This document shows, one piece after another, positions 10,023 to 25,205 of a DNA stretch of 35,045 bases (position 1 is its first letter; the number at the start of each line of letters is the position of its first letter). The translations under genes and the position numbers were made by a program. The notes under the pieces were generated by a model. It searched no databases, was not told the origin of the DNA, and saw nothing but the letters and a program-made list of their open reading frames with translations. The stretch is from Kiritimatiellota bacterium (GTDB lineage Bacteria; Verrucomicrobiota; Lentisphaeria; Victivallales; JAADHT01), in NCBI GenBank assembly GCA_030590505.1, contig JAUUYH010000004.1, positions 1 to 35,045 on the forward strand. Direction: 5' to 3'.

Positions 10023-10060
10023 GGCCCCAAGGGGCGGGGAATAAAACCCACCTTGGTGGG
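10023..10060. repeat. Intergenic two-hairpin repeat (family C), copy 1; possible bidirectional terminator
   Basis: GGCCCCAAGGGGC then CCCACCTTGGTGGG, between convergent genes; related copies near 16928, 17958, 20355 and 23784. Confidence 0.7.
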
Positions 10061-14770: not shown

Positions 14771-15310
14771 ATGCTTATATCTTATATTATAAAAAGTAAA
14801 AAAGTGTTGATAAAAACACTGGAAATCGCACTTATGGTTGCGATGGCAGTGCTTGTCGTCGATGTGCTGTATGGTGTCGGAACCAGATATCTCCTGGGGG
14901 AGCAGGCAAGTTGGACAGAGGAACTTGCAAGGATGCTTCTCATCTGGGTCTCTCTTCTCGGCGGTGCTGTTGCCTATGGCGCAAAAGCTCACCTCGGCGT
15001 CGATTATCTTGTAGAAAAAATGGAAGTTGTCTCGCAAAAGGCGATGAAGCTCATTGTTGATCTTCTCGTCTTGTTTTTTGCCGTGTCTGTACTTCTTGTG
15101 GGGGGCTGGAGTCTCACTTCTGAAACTTTTCACTTTGGACAGATGATGATGGCTCTTGACATACCAAAAGGTTATGTTTATATGGCGGTTCCCATCAGCG
15201 GGATCTTTTTTATCATTTTTGCACTTGAATCGATGTTTGAAACATTTTCGGGAGTAAAGGAAAAAGATGTTGAATCGGAATTAGCGACGGAGGAGGTGCA
15301 GACCACATGA
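14771..15310 (+). CDS. TRAP transporter small permease (DctQ family)
   Basis: Four-TM ORF, WTEELARMLLIWVSLLGGAVAYGAKAHLGVDYL; between dctP-like and dctM-like genes. Confidence 0.93.
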   Translation: MLISYIIKSKKVLIKTLEIALMVAMAVLVVDVLYGVGTRYLLGEQASWTEELARMLLIWVSLLGGAVAYGAKAHLGVDYLVEKMEVVSQKAMKLIVDLLVLFFAVSVLLVGGWSLTSETFHFGQMMMALDIPKGYVYMAVPISGIFFIIFALESMFETFSGVKEKDVESELATEEVQTT

Positions 15311-17999: not shown

Positions 18000-18089
18000 A
18001 TACTTTGCACGGATGCAATCTTAACATTTTCTTTAAACTTAATTAGCTAGCAAAAGAAAACAAGATATCTACCGCTTGCGGTATATATA
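18000..18089 (-). repeat. Intergenic repeat family D, copy 1, abutting a family C copy
   Basis: Reverse complement contains ATATACCGCAAGCGGTAGATATCTTGTTTTCTTTT...AAATGTTAAGATTGCATCCGTGCAAAGTATAG; similar to 23471-23559. Confidence 0.7.
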
Positions 18090-18219
18090 AAAATATATTT
18101 TGCTAAGCTTTTATTAAAAGCGTATATACCTCGTATGCTTATCTACTTTGCAGATCTGTCGCAATGCTCGAGTAGACATCGAGGTAGTTTATTTTTTTAC
18201 CTAAATCGCGCAATCTAGG

Positions 18220-18777
18220 TTACATATTTGCTAGTATCAGCACGGCACGTCTATTTTTTGAGAAAACAGCTTCACCTATTCCGCTAACTGCAGGACGCTC
18301 TTCACCAAAACTCAGAGTCTGTATGCGGTTAGATGGAATGCCAATTATTATTAGATAGTCATGAACTGAAAGTGCACGGCGTTCGCCAAGGGCACGGTTG
18401 TACTCTTCGCTACCGCGTTCATCACAATAGCCTTCAACAATTAGACCAAGACTAGGGTTAGCATTCATATACGTTGCCACTTGATCAAGAATTTTCTTCT
18501 CCCTTGCTCCGATTGTAAATTTATCGTAAGAGAAGTAGATAACAGGAAGTTTAAGTTCCGGACGACGTTCCCATCCTCCTGGCCTTTCGCCTACAGGCCC
18601 ATCTTTAAAGCCTTCTGGAGTTAGCGGATCATCCAATGCAGGCGGAATACTCACAACCTCTCCTTCCGGATCGTCTCCACCAAATGGCCATAAATTCTTC
18701 ATTGTTTTACAGCCGGTTCCCAACATAATGGGCATCACAAACAACATACAGAGCAATATCATTCGGTAATCTCTCAT
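18220..18777 (-). CDS. pal: Peptidoglycan-associated lipoprotein (Pal), OmpA family
   Basis: Lipobox-like LGTGC; OmpA/Pal core (IYFSYDKFTIGAREKKILDQVATYMNANPSLGLIVEGYCDERGSEEYNRALGERRALSVHDYLI). Confidence 0.92.
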   Translation of the reverse strand: MRDYRMILLCMLFVMPIMLGTGCKTMKNLWPFGGDDPEGEVVSIPPALDDPLTPEGFKDGPVGERPGGWERRPELKLPVIYFSYDKFTIGAREKKILDQVATYMNANPSLGLIVEGYCDERGSEEYNRALGERRALSVHDYLIIIGIPSNRIQTLSFGEERPAVSGIGEAVFSKNRRAVLILANM

Positions 18778-18932
18778 CGCTTATCTTCCTTTTTTTTGTT
18801 ATTTTTCTAATTTTACATAACATTTTTACTTATTTAAACAACTTTGCAGTTGAATAACAGCTACTTTGAAATATAATTATACACCTTAAAAAGGTATTTG
18901 TAAACAAAATTTAAAAAAAATGGTGATTTTTT

Positions 18933-19943
18933 ATGCCGAATATAGATTGGGATAAACTTAGATTTGAATATTCTACGACTCGTTCAAATATACGTTTCAA
19001 GTTTCAGGACGGTAAATGGGACAGTGGAACTCTGACTTCTGACTTTAATGTGAGCTTGCATATTGCATCCAGTTGCCTTCATTACGGGCAGGAGTGTTTT
19101 GAAGGACTTAAAGCAACTATGTCAAAAGATGGCAAGGTTCGAATATTCCGTCCAGAACAGAATGCTCGAAGAATGGCATCAACATCGAACTACCTTCTCG
19201 GCCCTGAGCTGCCAGAAGAGCTGTTTGTTGATGCTTGCCTGCGAGTTGCTAAAGATAATATTGACTATGTTCCACCATACGGGACTGGCGGTGCTCTCTA
19301 TATTCGTCCACTCCTGATTGGAACCTCTCCCAGGGTTGGAATTTCTCCAAGCGATGCATACGAATTTATTGTAATGGCAATGCCTGTAGGTCCCTACTAC
19401 AAAGAGGGCATTCATCCTGTAGATGCTCTGGTTATGGATAAGTTTGACCGTGCGGCACCGAATGGAACTGGAAATATCAAGGTTGGCGGTAACTATGCTG
19501 CTGGGTTGATGCCTGCGAAATACGCAAAAGATCGTGGTTACCCTATAAATCTGTTTCTGGATTCTGAAAGTCATAAATTTATCGATGAATTTGGAACAAG
19601 TAATTTTATAGGCATCACTCAAGACGATACGTATATTACTCCGAAATCTCCCTCTATTCTGCCGAGTATCACCAATGATTCGTTAATGCAAATTGCGAAA
19701 GACGCAGGAATGAAGACCGAACGCAGAAAAATTCCTATTGAAGAGCTTGCGGAACTTAAAGAGGTGGGAGCCTGCGGCACAGCTGTAGTGATAACACCGA
19801 TAAGTAACATTGCATATCGTGATGAGGTTTTCTCATACGGTGATACCTGCGGACCAGTTCTTAGAAGTCTCTACGATACATTGACCGGAATTCAATTCGG
19901 GGAACTTGAAGACAAGCACAACTGGCTTTTGGAAGTAAAATAA
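18933..19943 (+). CDS. ilvE: Branched-chain amino acid aminotransferase
   Basis: LHYGQECFEGLKATMSKDGKVRIFRPEQNARRM, TGNIKVGGNYAAGL, FIDEFGTSNF, EVGACGTAVVITPI. Confidence 0.94.
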   Translation: MPNIDWDKLRFEYSTTRSNIRFKFQDGKWDSGTLTSDFNVSLHIASSCLHYGQECFEGLKATMSKDGKVRIFRPEQNARRMASTSNYLLGPELPEELFVDACLRVAKDNIDYVPPYGTGGALYIRPLLIGTSPRVGISPSDAYEFIVMAMPVGPYYKEGIHPVDALVMDKFDRAAPNGTGNIKVGGNYAAGLMPAKYAKDRGYPINLFLDSESHKFIDEFGTSNFIGITQDDTYITPKSPSILPSITNDSLMQIAKDAGMKTERRKIPIEELAELKEVGACGTAVVITPISNIAYRDEVFSYGDTCGPVLRSLYDTLTGIQFGELEDKHNWLLEVK

Positions 19944-19948
19944 TTTTT

Positions 19949-20010
19949 GGGTCTTCACCTAAATGAGTGGGTAACAGTAAAAAAAAAGATCAAGAAGAGA
20001 ACACAGATAA
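19949..20010 (+). repeat. Intergenic repeat family B, copy 3
   Basis: GGGTCTTCACCTAAATGAGTGGGTAACAGTAAAAAAAAAGATCAAGAAGAGAACACAGATAA. Confidence 0.85.
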
Positions 20011-20011
20011 T

Positions 20012-20024
20012 TGCGAATTTCGCA
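20012..20024. repeat. TGCGAANTTCGCA palindrome (intergenic)
   Basis: TGCGAATTTCGCA exact. Confidence 0.95.
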
Positions 20025-20150
20025 AATTTTTGATGCTGAATTGAAGATTAAGAGAAGAATTTAGATTAAGACAAAAAATTTGATTAAGACAAAGATTAAG
20101 AAAAAACGGTTTGAGCAAAATAAGAAGTAAATAAAATGTGCGAAGCCCAA

Positions 20151-20178
20151 GTACGTTAGACATTCCTGCCTAACGTAC
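20151..20178. repeat. Intergenic hairpin repeat family E, copy 3
   Basis: Perfect 9-bp stem GTACGTTAG ... CTAACGTAC with loop ACATTCCTGC; related hairpins at 71-93 and 184-203. Confidence 0.85.
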
Positions 20179-20354
20179 GTGAAGAGGAGTAAGTATCAAT
20201 TCATCAACTAATTAGCGCATTTAGCAAACATTTAAATTTTACGTATTTCACTTCTCACAATTCACTCTTCCGCCTCCTTAGCGTCTTAGTACCCTTGCGT
20301 TAACTCTTCTCCTTCTGACTATCAAAAAGATTTGAGGCTGTTTAGGTATAACGC

Positions 20355-20394
20355 AACCCACTAAGGTGGGTTTAATTTTCTGCCCCTTTGAGAC
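20355..20394. repeat. Intergenic two-hairpin repeat family C, copy 4 (degenerate)
   Basis: AACCCACTAAGGTGGGTTTAATTTTCTGCCCCTTTGAGAC between convergent ilvE and trpG. Confidence 0.6.
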
Positions 20395-20463
20395 ATACAG
20401 AAGAGATCTAGCCACGGGAAGCCAAGGGGAAAGCAAGAGAATACAGATTAAGAGACATATTTT

Positions 20464-21039
20464 TTATGGCAAAGCTATATCTAGAAAGTTCTGCAGTAGT
20501 TTATGTCCGTATTCAGTGATAATTGATTCAGGGTGAAACTGCATTCCATATATCGGCAAACTCTTATGGGTAATTCCCATAATGATCTTGTCTTCTGTTG
20601 TTGCAGTAACCTCAAGAACATCAGGTAACGTTATCGGATCAATGGTCAGAGAATGGTAACGTGTCGCTTCAAACAGATCAGGAATCCCTTTAAAAAGCCC
20701 CTCTCCATGATGAAGAATCTTTGAAACTTTACCATGCATCAAATATGGTGCATGTACAATGTTCCCACCAAAAACCTCTCCGATAGACTGATGCCCGAGG
20801 CATATTCCAAGTGTAGGAATTTTTTTCTCAGCAGCATATCTAATCGCATCGCACGAAATGCCCGCCTCCTTTGGGGAACACGGCCCAGGCGAGATCACTA
20901 AAGCATTGAAATCTAGTTGATCCAGACCGCCTATATCTATCTTATCATTCCTGTAAACTTCAGGAGCATGTCCCAATTCACCTAAATACTGTACAATATT
21001 ATAAGTAAATGAGTCATAATTATCTATCATTAAAATCAT
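20464..21039 (-). CDS. trpG: Anthranilate/aminodeoxychorismate synthase glutamine amidotransferase (component II)
   Basis: Class I GATase: MILMIDNYDSFTYNIVQYLGELG, LVISPGPCSPKEAGIS, PTLGICLGHQSIGEVFGG, YGMQFHPESIITEYG. trpG versus pabA cannot be decided from sequence alone. Confidence 0.92.
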   Translation of the reverse strand: MILMIDNYDSFTYNIVQYLGELGHAPEVYRNDKIDIGGLDQLDFNALVISPGPCSPKEAGISCDAIRYAAEKKIPTLGICLGHQSIGEVFGGNIVHAPYLMHGKVSKILHHGEGLFKGIPDLFEATRYHSLTIDPITLPDVLEVTATTEDKIIMGITHKSLPIYGMQFHPESIITEYGHKLLQNFLDIALP

Positions 21040-21182
21040 AATTTCACCAATGTTAAAAAGTATTCACGGATTTCTAATATAGTCCGTACCTCGAACTCTT
21101 CAACCGCTAAAACGCAGTAGAAAAATGAAAAAGGTAAAAAATCAATGAGATTTTTTCCTCGCAAAAGGGGCAGGGTGAAGGC

Positions 21183-21219
21183 AAAAAAAAACCTGGAAGT
21201 GTCCGGAGACACTCCCAGG
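21183..21219 (-). terminator. Strong intrinsic terminator on the minus strand
   Basis: Minus-strand RNA: CCUGGGAGUGUC-UCCG-GACACUUCCAGG-UUUUUUUUU. 12-bp stem (one G-U, valid only on the minus strand), UNCG-type tetraloop closed by C-G, then nine Us. Confidence 0.88.
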
Positions 21220-21280
21220 CCAAACCAAGGGGGGGAAGAATATAATATTTTTTAATATTTCTAAATTTTTACTCTTTCTA
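21183..21280 (-). ncRNA. Predicted sigma-54-dependent small RNA of ~98 nt (or 5' leader/attenuator of trpG)
   Basis: Bounded by a consensus -24/-12 promoter (predicted +1 ~21280) and an intrinsic terminator; no ORF of the provided track covers it. Confidence 0.55.
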
Positions 21281-21290
21281 TAATTGATAT

Positions 21291-21307
21291 AGCAAATCGC
21301 GTGCCAA
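21291..21307 (-). promoter_or_regulatory. Sigma-54 (RpoN) -24/-12 promoter
   Basis: Minus strand TTGGCACGCGATTTGCT matches YTGGCACGrNNNTTGCW with exact GG-to-GC spacing. Confidence 0.8.
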
Positions 21308-21400
21308 CTTTTTACCTTTCAATGTAATTCGTTGATATGTAAGGTAATAAAATTTTTATTCACATCTTCAACAAATAACTCGATTGCTAGTTGAGGTTAA

Positions 21401-21463
21401 AATCATGATTATCATAATGATAGGATTATCATTTTGATAGTCAATTATTACCATTATGGTAAT
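21401..21463. promoter_or_regulatory. Cluster of dyad-symmetric sites; candidate enhancer-binding or iron-type regulator sites
   Basis: AATCATGATT (perfect palindrome), repeated GATTATCAT/ATGATA elements, and ATTACCAT-T-ATGGTAAT; lies ~120-185 bp upstream of the predicted sigma-54 start. Confidence 0.4.
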
Positions 21464-22619
21464 TATTCATAATATATCTGTACTCTTTGAGTATCATTTT
21501 TTCAATAGTTACTGGTTTTATTTTTTCAGGAAGTACGTTATATGTATATGTTTCTATTTCAATATTTGAGCATATTTCCGGATTATTGATAATTAGCTTT
21601 ATGACTTTGTTTAATTCAGTTGCTGCGGTTGCGAAATTCGCAGAAATGGATTTATAGAATATGGGCATATGAAAATGTATAACAAGTGATTGAGCTTGTT
21701 TTAGTGTTTGCAGATCGGAGTTGTTCTCGATATCTGAGATATCTTTGTATGCTGCAACGATTTTTTGTTTTGAGTTGAAAAATCTTGTCTGGTGCAGATA
21801 TACAAGATCTGCGAAATTCGCAAGTTCTTTGAGCAATGAGGTTGCATCAGTATTCGATTTTCCGCAAAGGGCGGTGCTTAATTGAATCTTAGCAATTGGT
21901 ACTCTAGCATTCAGCAGGCATTGGAGGCCGCTACCGGGAGTACCTTCTAGGAGTTCCTGGTGGCATGTATCATAACAGACCCCAATAAATTTTCTACTGT
22001 TTGCGGTTCGCAGATATTGTTTGCGAAATTCGCAGAATTCTTGTGGTGTCTCCCATATACAGTCGGGCTCCATTTCAACACCTAACGTAATTATTTTTCC
22101 TAATTTTGTCTTAATTTGTGCCAAATGCTCTGCTACTTGGTTCAGATTTTTTGCTATATCTGCTAGTTTCGCACTATTTTGGTGAAATTTATATGCACCA
22201 GGAACTGTACTGATGCTGCCGACAGTGTTGTCAGGTAGCAATTCGGCTAGTATATCAGCTACTCTACATGTAAAATCGAGTCTTAAATTTGAGCTCCAAT
22301 CGGGCAGATATACGTTCTCTTTTATTGGCCCATTATGAAATTTACCATACGGAAATGCATTAATAGTAAAGGAGTAAAAGTTATTATCAGCGAGTAGTGA
22401 TTTAAGTTGTGCGAGATTCGCAGATTGTTGTAACTCCTCAACTGACTCTGCATCAAGCCAGAGCCCAAGGGCAAACGGAGTATCATCAGTCAAGTTAAGG
22501 TTTCTGCGAATTTCGCACATTTTTGGAAGGATCGCTTTAACTGTATTTATATATCCCTCTTTGTTGCGTGGAAATAGATTAAGGCTGTAACATAAGTGAG
22601 TCGTTGGATTAATTTTCAT
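21441..22619 (-). CDS. EboE-like metabolite traffic protein / TIM-barrel (xylose isomerase-like) protein
   Basis: Start THLCYSLNLFPRNKEGYINTVKAILPKMCEIRRNL resembles EboE HLxYCTNxxPGE...; internal LGVEMEPDCIWET, GVCYDTCHQEL. Confidence 0.6.
   Translation of the reverse strand: MKINPTTHLCYSLNLFPRNKEGYINTVKAILPKMCEIRRNLNLTDDTPFALGLWLDAESVEELQQSANLAQLKSLLADNNFYSFTINAFPYGKFHNGPIKENVYLPDWSSNLRLDFTCRVADILAELLPDNTVGSISTVPGAYKFHQNSAKLADIAKNLNQVAEHLAQIKTKLGKIITLGVEMEPDCIWETPQEFCEFRKQYLRTANSRKFIGVCYDTCHQELLEGTPGSGLQCLLNARVPIAKIQLSTALCGKSNTDATSLLKELANFADLVYLHQTRFFNSKQKIVAAYKDISDIENNSDLQTLKQAQSLVIHFHMPIFYKSISANFATAATELNKVIKLIINNPEICSNIEIETYTYNVLPEKIKPVTIEKMILKEYRYIMNNYHNGNN
21630..21642. repeat. TGCGAANTTCGCA palindrome (in EboE-like gene)
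   Basis: TGCGAAATTCGCA exact. Confidence 0.95.
21810..21822. repeat. TGCGAANTTCGCA palindrome (in EboE-like gene)
   Basis: TGCGAAATTCGCA exact. Confidence 0.95.
22022..22034. repeat. TGCGAANTTCGCA palindrome (in EboE-like gene)
   Basis: TGCGAAATTCGCA exact. Confidence 0.95.
22505..22517. repeat. TGCGAANTTCGCA palindrome (in EboE-like gene)
   Basis: TGCGAATTTCGCA exact. Confidence 0.95.
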
Positions 22620-22637
22620 AACAGGAAAATTTTCCCT

Positions 22638-23378
22638 TTAATGCCAACGTGGCAGCAATCTATTTAGCAGTTTGCTAGGCAAAATTTCTGAACGCAAAGA
22701 ACGCTTAAACTTCTTCCAGCATTTTGCCTTTACAAAAGATGATAAAATTGGAAAGTCAAAATACCATGGACATTTATCCATAGGACGAAACCTGTCTAGA
22801 TCAATCATAACAATATCATCAGAGCCTTGTTTGATATAAACATGCTTTGCAAAAAGGTCTGGATAGGTATATTTTGCAGAGTGAACCTGTTTCATTATAT
22901 CAGCCAACTGCGTAAGTATCGCCTCTTTTCTTTCGATAAAATCAGCAACAGCCACTTTGGGTGCCTTACCAGTAATCAACTCTCGAATTGAGCAGTATCC
23001 GCTGAGTTCTTTCAGCAATAGAAAGGCTGCCCGATTCTCTTCATCAATCATATATGCAACAACTTCGGGCGGCTTAATGTTAAATTCAGGCAGAACATTT
23101 ATTGCCTCAAACTCATTCCTTATCCCTTCAAAGGCAACTCCTTCAGCCTTTTTCAGGAAAAAAATATTATCCGCTATCTCTATTTTTGTTACACGACGAT
23201 TGATTTCTCCGCTATTTTTATCCGCATGCTCGCGCATAATGGTTGTCTCTATTCCTGTACGCTTTTCTAGATCGAGGGGTGTCTCTTTTGCAAAAGACAT
23301 AAAGGTCTCAACGGTAAAATCGGAGAACAGTTTCTCCGCCTTTTTATCATTCCAAATTATAGTGCTACTATTTTTCAT
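22638..23378 (-). CDS. Lipopolysaccharide kinase (Kdo/WaaP/InaA) family protein
   Basis: Kinase-like pattern: FFLKKAEG, AFLLLKELSGYCSIRELI, LADIMKQVHSAKYTYPDLFAKHVYIKQGSDDIVMIDLDRFRP. Confidence 0.75.
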   Translation of the reverse strand: MKNSSTIIWNDKKAEKLFSDFTVETFMSFAKETPLDLEKRTGIETTIMREHADKNSGEINRRVTKIEIADNIFFLKKAEGVAFEGIRNEFEAINVLPEFNIKPPEVVAYMIDEENRAAFLLLKELSGYCSIRELITGKAPKVAVADFIERKEAILTQLADIMKQVHSAKYTYPDLFAKHVYIKQGSDDIVMIDLDRFRPMDKCPWYFDFPILSSFVKAKCWKKFKRSLRSEILPSKLLNRLLPRWH

Positions 23379-23470
23379 TATTTTCAGTATCTCTTTTCTG
23401 TAATATCTAATTTATGTTATCAATATATAAACAGATAGATGGTGCATATACATAAGTGCATTCTCAAAAA

Positions 23471-23559
23471 TATACCGCAAGCGGTAGAGATCTTGTATTT
23501 CTTTTATTGACGACTAAACCTTAAGTGAAATGCTAAAATTTCACCCGCGTAAAGTATAG
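23471..23559 (+). repeat. Intergenic repeat family D, copy 2
   Basis: TATACCGCAAGCGGTAGAGATCTTGTATTTCTTTT...TTAAGTGAAATGCTAAAATTTCACCCGCGTAAAGTATAG; similar to reverse complement of 18000-18089. Confidence 0.7.
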
Positions 23560-23783
23560 AAAACCTTAATCCCACAACTGGGGATTAATGGTAGAGACTA
23601 TACTCAATGACTGCAAATTAACATTATATGGCATAATATAGCTTCCATTATTAAAATTTCAATAGTCCATGAAGCGTGAAGATGAACTGAATCGTTAGAA
23701 ATATTTCTAAGAATGGACTACCTCGAACGAGTACAAGGCATCTATGCTTTTGAGGAAAGCATGAGCAAATATTTTTTAATAAA

Positions 23784-23824
23784 ACGCCCCCAGAAGGGTG
23801 ATAGAAATGCACTTTGGTGGCATT
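23784..23824. repeat. Degenerate intergenic repeat family C, copy 5
   Basis: ACGCCCCCAGAAGGGTGATAGAAATGCACTTTGGTGGCATTA just past the DUF58 gene stop. Confidence 0.5.
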
Positions 23825-25205
23825 ACAGGTTGCGAATATGCCCTAAAAATACATCTCTAGGATGCAGAACCATTGCATTGTCTGGATAATCATCAGATTG
23901 GGTTAAAGAAATAATAATAATTTTCAGGGTAATGCCATGCTGATGAAGTTGCTCGACGAGCTCCTTCCTTGCATCATCCCACTTCAGTAGCAGAAGCATC
24001 GCACTACCAATGCCTGCCATCTCTTCAATTACAGCAGATTCAAGTTTGTTTATCGACTCTGTCCTGCTTGGCTCAAGACATGCGAGGATGTCCAGTATCT
24101 GGTCTAGCTGTGCAAGGCTTCTTCCCCCTTTAAAGTGATAAACATCGCTACCTGCAGCAAAAACATCTACGATATAATCACCATGAGCTAGATAGTGTGA
24201 AAGTGCCGCAGTTAGCGAAAGGGCTGCTTCAAAAGATGGATTTTGATTTACTTTTTTAGACTTAAGGAAAGATTTTGAGCAGGGAATAAAAGTATCAACG
24301 ATTAGGGCTATACGACAAAGGTACTCCTCCTGAAATTCACGTACAATAAGACGATTTTTGCGTGCGGTACTCGGCCAGTGTATATGCTTAGGATTATCTC
24401 CTGTGCGAAATTCGCGACATGCATGAAATTCAAGAGACTCACCTACATGCGAGACCAATGACATACCCTCTTTCTGAAATCGTGCATTAACCGGCAACTG
24501 AACAGAGTTTAAAGGTTCATACCTCGGATACACCATAACTCTCTGAAAATGCCTGTTCCTACATGTCCACTTAATAATGCCAAATGGGAATGATGTGGAT
24601 GCAAAGGCCGGTTTAAGTATATACTCCCCACGTTTTTTAGAATGTATATAAGATGTCATACTCACGGTATTTTTTGATTTAATAAAGTCCAATGAGGCAA
24701 GATTCGCTTCCCGCCGCATCCAGCCGTATTGATGAATTGGATCCAAGCTTATATCCCATGCAGGCATTTTTCTCAGATTTTTAATGGTATAGTGAATCTT
24801 AATTACACTGCCCGCCCTGATGCGGAGGGGGATTTCTCTGCGGATATCCAAACGAGGCAAAAAAAGTAGCCCTACGACAAAATCAGTAACAAGCAGTGCT
24901 AGCAACATAAAGGCTAATATTCTAAGAGGGCCTTCCGAGACAACCGCACCGTAGAGTAGAATAAGCACAATGACGGATATAATCATACGCCCAGGAACGG
25001 TAAATATGCGAATATACCATGCGTAGAGCCATGCAAACAAAAGAAGCGTAGGTGACTTATATCCTGATTTACGTTTCAACATATATGCAGGTAGGTCAAT
25101 CCAACCAGGGCCTTCATAAAAGCGCTTACGCAAAAGTAAAAGGAGCTTAAATGGATAAACTATAGATGTTTTTAAGGAGGTGCGCATAATATTCCCGATA
25201 TTCAT
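23823..25205 (-). CDS. DUF58 domain-containing protein
   Basis: ESLEFHACREFRTGDNPKHIHWPSTARKNRLIVREFQEEY, typical DUF58 core; two N-terminal TM segments. Confidence 0.9.
   Translation of the reverse strand: MNIGNIMRTSLKTSIVYPFKLLLLLRKRFYEGPGWIDLPAYMLKRKSGYKSPTLLLFAWLYAWYIRIFTVPGRMIISVIVLILLYGAVVSEGPLRILAFMLLALLVTDFVVGLLFLPRLDIRREIPLRIRAGSVIKIHYTIKNLRKMPAWDISLDPIHQYGWMRREANLASLDFIKSKNTVSMTSYIHSKKRGEYILKPAFASTSFPFGIIKWTCRNRHFQRVMVYPRYEPLNSVQLPVNARFQKEGMSLVSHVGESLEFHACREFRTGDNPKHIHWPSTARKNRLIVREFQEEYLCRIALIVDTFIPCSKSFLKSKKVNQNPSFEAALSLTAALSHYLAHGDYIVDVFAAGSDVYHFKGGRSLAQLDQILDILACLEPSRTESINKLESAVIEEMAGIGSAMLLLLKWDDARKELVEQLHQHGITLKIIIISLTQSDDYPDNAMVLHPRDVFLGHIRNL

Follow-up and report, generated by a model that had tools for sequence, protein, structure and literature searches.

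Does the minus strand at 21183-21307 of the window (the whole stretch of 35,045 nucleotides that was analysed) carry the gene for a regulatory RNA, and if it does, how might this RNA act? A sequence-only reading had described a sigma-54 promoter, a short transcript and a terminator at this place, and had left two options, a stand-alone RNA or a conditional leader of the trpG-like gene downstream.

The predicted RNA and its sigma-54 promoter

The features to which the argument refers are given here in plain form; C177 is a contig of the same genome (G000) that carries a second copy, and G001 and G002 are genomes of two other genera of the family.

21448..21462, minus strand: possible third, degenerate dyad TTACCATAATGGTAA, centre -175, overlapping the end of the upstream ORF
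21426..21440, minus strand: distal enhancer-site dyad CTATCAAAATGATAA, centre -153; matched at -152 in C177, similar in G001 and G002
21409..21423, minus strand: proximal enhancer-site dyad CTATCATTATGATAA, centre -136; matched at -136 in C177
21291..21307, minus strand: sigma-54 -24/-12 promoter TTGGCACGCGATTTGCT; kept at C177 and G002, in weaker form at G001
21183..21280, minus strand: predicted 98-nt non-coding RNA, its start placed by inference 12 nt past the -12 C
21221..21238, minus strand: conserved unpaired core CTTCCCCCCCTTGGTTTG; the same in C177 and G002, with C8 in G001
21192..21219, minus strand: terminator hairpin CCTGGGAGTGTC-TCCG-GACACTTCCAGG, from direct reading, folding and covariation
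21183..21191, minus strand: nine-T tract, tail of the intrinsic terminator, from direct reading
L110 (G000, contig C104), about 14779-14856: divergent core copy with a sigma-70-like promoter, its C-tract split by a hairpin

Direct reading of the minus strand from 21307 to 21291 gave the promoter element, whose GG is at 21305/21304 and whose GC is at 21293/21292. The arms of the terminator stem occupy 21219-21208 and 21203-21192 around the TCCG loop at 21207-21204, the stem contains one internal G-U pair, and its base is extended by two further G-U pairs. The C7 tract of the core was located at 21235-21229. All the bases and coordinates quoted in the sequence-only reading matched the sequence, and the hairpin with its internal G-U, the UCCG loop, the nine Us and the C7 tract that it had described are present on this strand. 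The hairpin was the strongest among 18 terminator-like sites within 18000-25000, and the predicted RNA folded with a z value of -2.8. No ATG occurs inside the predicted transcript (21183-21280), the only overlapping minus-strand ORF of at least 50 amino acids starts with a GTG inside the hairpin, and no coding potential is common to the homologous loci described below.

The exact -24/-12 pattern was found once in the window, at 21291-21307, and three perfect sites are present in the 2.54-Mb genome, where base composition would give approximately 0.14. Two of the three belong to the locus studied here and to its paralogue in C177, and the third (contig C98) precedes an ORF that we call Hsp20-like from reading its translation. 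When one mismatch was allowed, the pattern was detected at 16 genomic sites, and the reversed control at 4. Besides the perfect site before the Hsp20-like ORF (L002), one-mismatch versions were seen before small, Cys-containing, secreted-looking ORFs (L007 and L014), likewise named by reading. Regarding the machinery that such a promoter requires, rpoN, whose presence had been proposed as a check, was found on contig C104 (E 7.9e-60), and the genome yielded six strong matches to bEBPs, the activators of sigma-54; both partners of a sigma-54-controlled sRNA are encoded. We consider that 21183-21280 is very probably the gene for a regulatory RNA of about 98 nt that is switched on through sigma-54 only.

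Related loci, enhancer dyads and conserved structure

A homologue search with a 266-base query covered 61 relatives. The paralogue in C177 shows 82% identity over 134 bases (E 1.6e-29) and carries a perfect -24/-12 site itself, while parts of the element were found in G001 and G002, which belong to uncultured Victivallales/Lentisphaeria. The G002 locus sequence matches JAFGFR010000090.1 (Victivallales bacterium Zod_Metabat.1329), and that of G001 matches WFSE01000133.1 (Lentisphaeria bacterium S016_21_esom). The four loci share one order of parts: dyad(s), -24/-12 element, spacer, CTTC(7-8)TTGGTTTG, hairpin and T-run. Hence the predicted non-coding RNA is preceded at each of the four loci by a -24/-12 element at fixed spacing, as in sigma-54-dependent sRNAs, and the conservation of this element in two other genera answers positively a check suggested earlier; the version in G001, TTGGCATTCGTATTGCT, is the weakest. 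From the predicted start to the core, the spacer measures 42 nt in the window, 40 in C177, 102 in G002 and 42 in G001.

Upstream of the promoter, a dyad of the type TTATCAnnnTGATAA is present at 4/4 loci, with two copies at each of three loci and one at G001. The centres lie at -136/-153 in the window, -136/-152 in C177, -149/-197 in G002 and -161 in G001, that is, about 80-200 nt before the start, where the activator site of a sigma-54 sRNA is expected. The tandem pattern was seen only at the window locus and C177 among four family genomes. In this genome the exact dyad has two copies, in tandem before the C177 RNA, and the two dyads of the window differ from it by one mismatch each; direct reading also revealed that C177 carries TTATCATAATGGGAA at the same distance as the degenerate dyad of the window. 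The exact sequence occurs once in G001 and once in G002, each time at the RNA locus, so every exact dyad of these three genomes falls at RNA loci; approximately 0.7 exact sites per genome are expected by chance. The single exact dyad of G003 (L057), a genome where no RNA copy was recognised, was set aside, having no sigma-54 promoter nearby. When one mismatch was allowed, dyads of G000 were not in excess (12 versus 19 sites per strand for the reversed-pattern control), and the argument consequently stands on exactness, pairing and position, not on loose-match counts. The location of the dyads in the expected enhancer position independently supports control by sigma-54 and an enhancer-binding protein. 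The promoter, predicted RNA and terminator of the sequence-only reading were thus supported, while the tandem dyads and the second genomic copy had been missed there.

To describe the structure, we built a model (R1) from the sequences of the window, C177, G002 and G001. Its 14-bp terminator stem consists of 100% standard pairs, 8/14 of them with changes on both sides, and the covariation score reached 0.786, whereas slid partners scored 0.202 at most, values that rest on few sequences since only four independent loci were available. Adding the sequence of a Mu-like phage contig raised the pairs with both-sided change to 12/14, a figure that leans towards the model because the phage alignment was fitted to it. 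The stem is accordingly kept by compensatory change, as the sequence-only reading would predict. The members' loops read UCCG, UUAG, GCAA and GCAA, a switch between UNCG-like and GCAA types, and a U-tract follows the hairpin at 4/4 loci. The core CUUC(7-8)UUGGUUUG is strictly conserved at 4/4 loci and unpaired in the members' folds, with a partial exception in the longer G002 transcript.

When the covariance model was run against 138 genomes of the order and 390 of the phylum, strong matches were confined to this family, although Infernal ran with its stricter filters and may have passed over distant members. The search of the same and related genomes suggested with the sequence-only reading recovered the members in C177, G001 and G002. 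Beyond this family, weak matches within the order and phylum included L029-L031, which read like ordinary terminators, and L044-L052, all with E values above 1e-4; core matches in six other genomes and viral contig L202, which lacked a matching hairpin, were taken as chance. No Rfam covariance model, including those of the Qrr, CrcZ and GlmY/GlmZ families, matched at the gathering cut-off; below it, matches to the L20 leader, tfoR and others had no sequence support and were likewise dismissed as chance. A search of open-licence papers returned no earlier description of a sigma-54 sRNA in Lentisphaerae/Victivallales. Altogether, we are highly confident that the locus is a sigma-54-controlled non-coding RNA unit, as judged from its sequence.

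The core also appears in other settings. A third, divergent match in this genome lies on C104, approximately 350 bases downstream of rpoN (30 bits, E 6e-4), and reads CTTCCCCCC, small hairpin, CCTTGGTTTGG, terminator, with a sigma-70-like site in place of the sigma-54 one. On the minus strand of the Mu-like phage contig (L043, 1111-1175), an ORF is followed directly by the core with a terminator hairpin, and in G003 CTTTCCCCCCTTGGTTTGG follows an IrrE-domain ORF; neither has a recognised sigma-54 site. In G001 it stands between both genes of IS21-like elements (gene names by reading), and at L081 and L089 of G001 it immediately precedes the second gene and could fold on the ribosome site of that gene. 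By sequence, these matches may be functional relatives or partly chance. It is rather improbable, in our estimation, that one recognised RNA module, CUUC(7-8)UUGGUUUG, is common, in the same sense, to the enhancer-controlled sRNAs, the sigma-70-type variant beside rpoN and the mobile elements (Mu-like phage and IS21-like), with sRNA and mobile elements competing for one protein or target set where Hfq was not found.

Possible mode of action and rival explanations

As there is neither a conserved ORF nor synteny, the product is likely to be the RNA itself. The explanation that we favour as a whole, with reasonable confidence, is a stand-alone trans-acting sRNA of a new family that acts via its C-rich core. 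The conserved sites suggest that one bEBP would bind the TTATCAnnnTGATAA dyads, which lie 136-200 nt upstream, and would open the sigma-54 polymerase at the -24/-12 promoter, so that the RNA would be made only while the activator is active. The transcript would end at the intrinsic terminator and would present the fixed unpaired CUUCCCCCCCUUGGUUUG beside the stem, and two sibling copies would be under the same control, as in the Qrr or CrcZ/CrcY siblings. The core, which resembles an anti-Shine-Dalgarno sequence, might then serve as a seed that pairs with G-rich mRNA stretches and represses in trans without Hfq; we regard pairing with G-rich mRNA sites as a possible mechanism, carrying slightly less than even weight.

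Pairing of the core with 572 start regions (0.72 Mb, about 30% of the genome) was not above the reversed or intragenic controls. The Hfq family gave no match in any of the four family genomes (assemblies 72-91% complete), so that two attributes of Hfq-dependent sRNAs, Hfq in the genome and seed complementarity to start regions beyond chance, were not observed. The top single target match fell in the coding sequence of the upstream gene, part of an AbiEii-like pair (name by reading), and was rejected as a target. Exact CCAAGGGGGG occurs in this genome only opposite the two RNAs themselves. A dispersed palindromic repeat, AAGGGACGGGGAATAAAACCCACCTTGGTGGG, has 25 copies in 0.72 Mb (in the window at 10029, 16936 and 17989, and at many other G000 loci) and can pair partly with the core; since 0.1 Mb of sequence from family relatives contained no copy, a role as the conserved target is unlikely. 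A short palindrome, TGCGAATTTCGCA, and its variants are also repeated in the window (e.g., 20011-20025, 21809-21823 and 22020-22036), and occur inside coding sequence as well.

After the result with the start regions, the transcription unit is well supported, trans-acting base pairing leads among the modes of action, though unproven, and protein titration is its main rival. In the latter case, the C-rich core would capture an RNA-binding protein, so that induction through sigma-54 would take this protein away from other RNAs, in the manner of CrcZ with Hfq/Crc. The invariance of the core, including UUGGUUUG, across genera agrees with this idea, as do its presence in further RNAs, again in the same sense (the IS21-like intergenic leader of G001, and after ORFs in the phage contig and G003), the C104 copy, whose C-tract halves would be left adjacent by the interrupting hairpin, and the lack of enrichment in start-region pairing. 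However, each RNA has a single core copy, versus the many that are usual in titrating RNAs, and there is no candidate protein, Hfq not having been found in the four family genomes; we therefore judge titration unlikely.

The two remaining explanations seem highly improbable to us. A conditional leader or attenuator of the trpG-like gene would fit the start of this gene 143 nt past the T-tract on the same strand, but neighbouring genes are unrelated from locus to locus, and the downstream one is trpG/pabA-like in the window, convergent in C177, hemW-like in G002 and lgt in G001. The position before trpG or related genes that characterises a trp-type leader is thus not conserved; in addition, a sigma-70-like site lies between the terminator and trpG (21103-21076), and folding predicted no alternative antiterminator helix. 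This option of the sequence-only reading was rejected for lack of synteny, and its other option, the stand-alone RNA, is favoured. Alternatively, core and hairpin could be a conserved terminator module copied between operons, with no regulatory RNA and a fortuitous promoter, which would account for their presence after ORFs in L043 and G003; against this, the four loci have a -24/-12 element and enhancer dyads ahead of the core in a fixed order, with no ORF between.

Comparison with known sigma-54-controlled RNAs

The sRNAs under sigma-54 control are known chiefly from Proteobacteria, where the best-studied ones use Hfq. Those of the Qrr group in Vibrio depend on LuxO and sigma-54 and need Hfq; the Victivallales RNA resembles them in being a short sigma-54 sRNA with several copies, an identical core and an intrinsic terminator, but differs in sequence and fold. 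With GlmY/GlmZ of Enterobacteria, which are controlled by sigma-54/GlrR and act through RapZ and glmS, it shares a sigma-54 promoter with upstream activator sites, whereas its sequence is different. In Pseudomonas, CbrB activates the sigma-54 sRNAs CrcZ and CrcY, which sequester Crc/Hfq (PMC8871633); a review of sibling sRNAs is also available (PMC4211561). The likeness to CrcZ/CrcY lies in a sigma-54 promoter with a bEBP, sibling copies and a non-coding product; unlike CrcZ, the Victivallales RNA has one C-rich core, Hfq was not found, and, as for Qrr and GlmY/GlmZ, there was no Rfam match.

Given that the promoter, the activator site, the core and the terminator can all be read in the sequence, the regulon and the activator of the family are directly testable. 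The family would exemplify an sRNA bearing a C-rich core in bacteria whose genomes gave no Hfq match.
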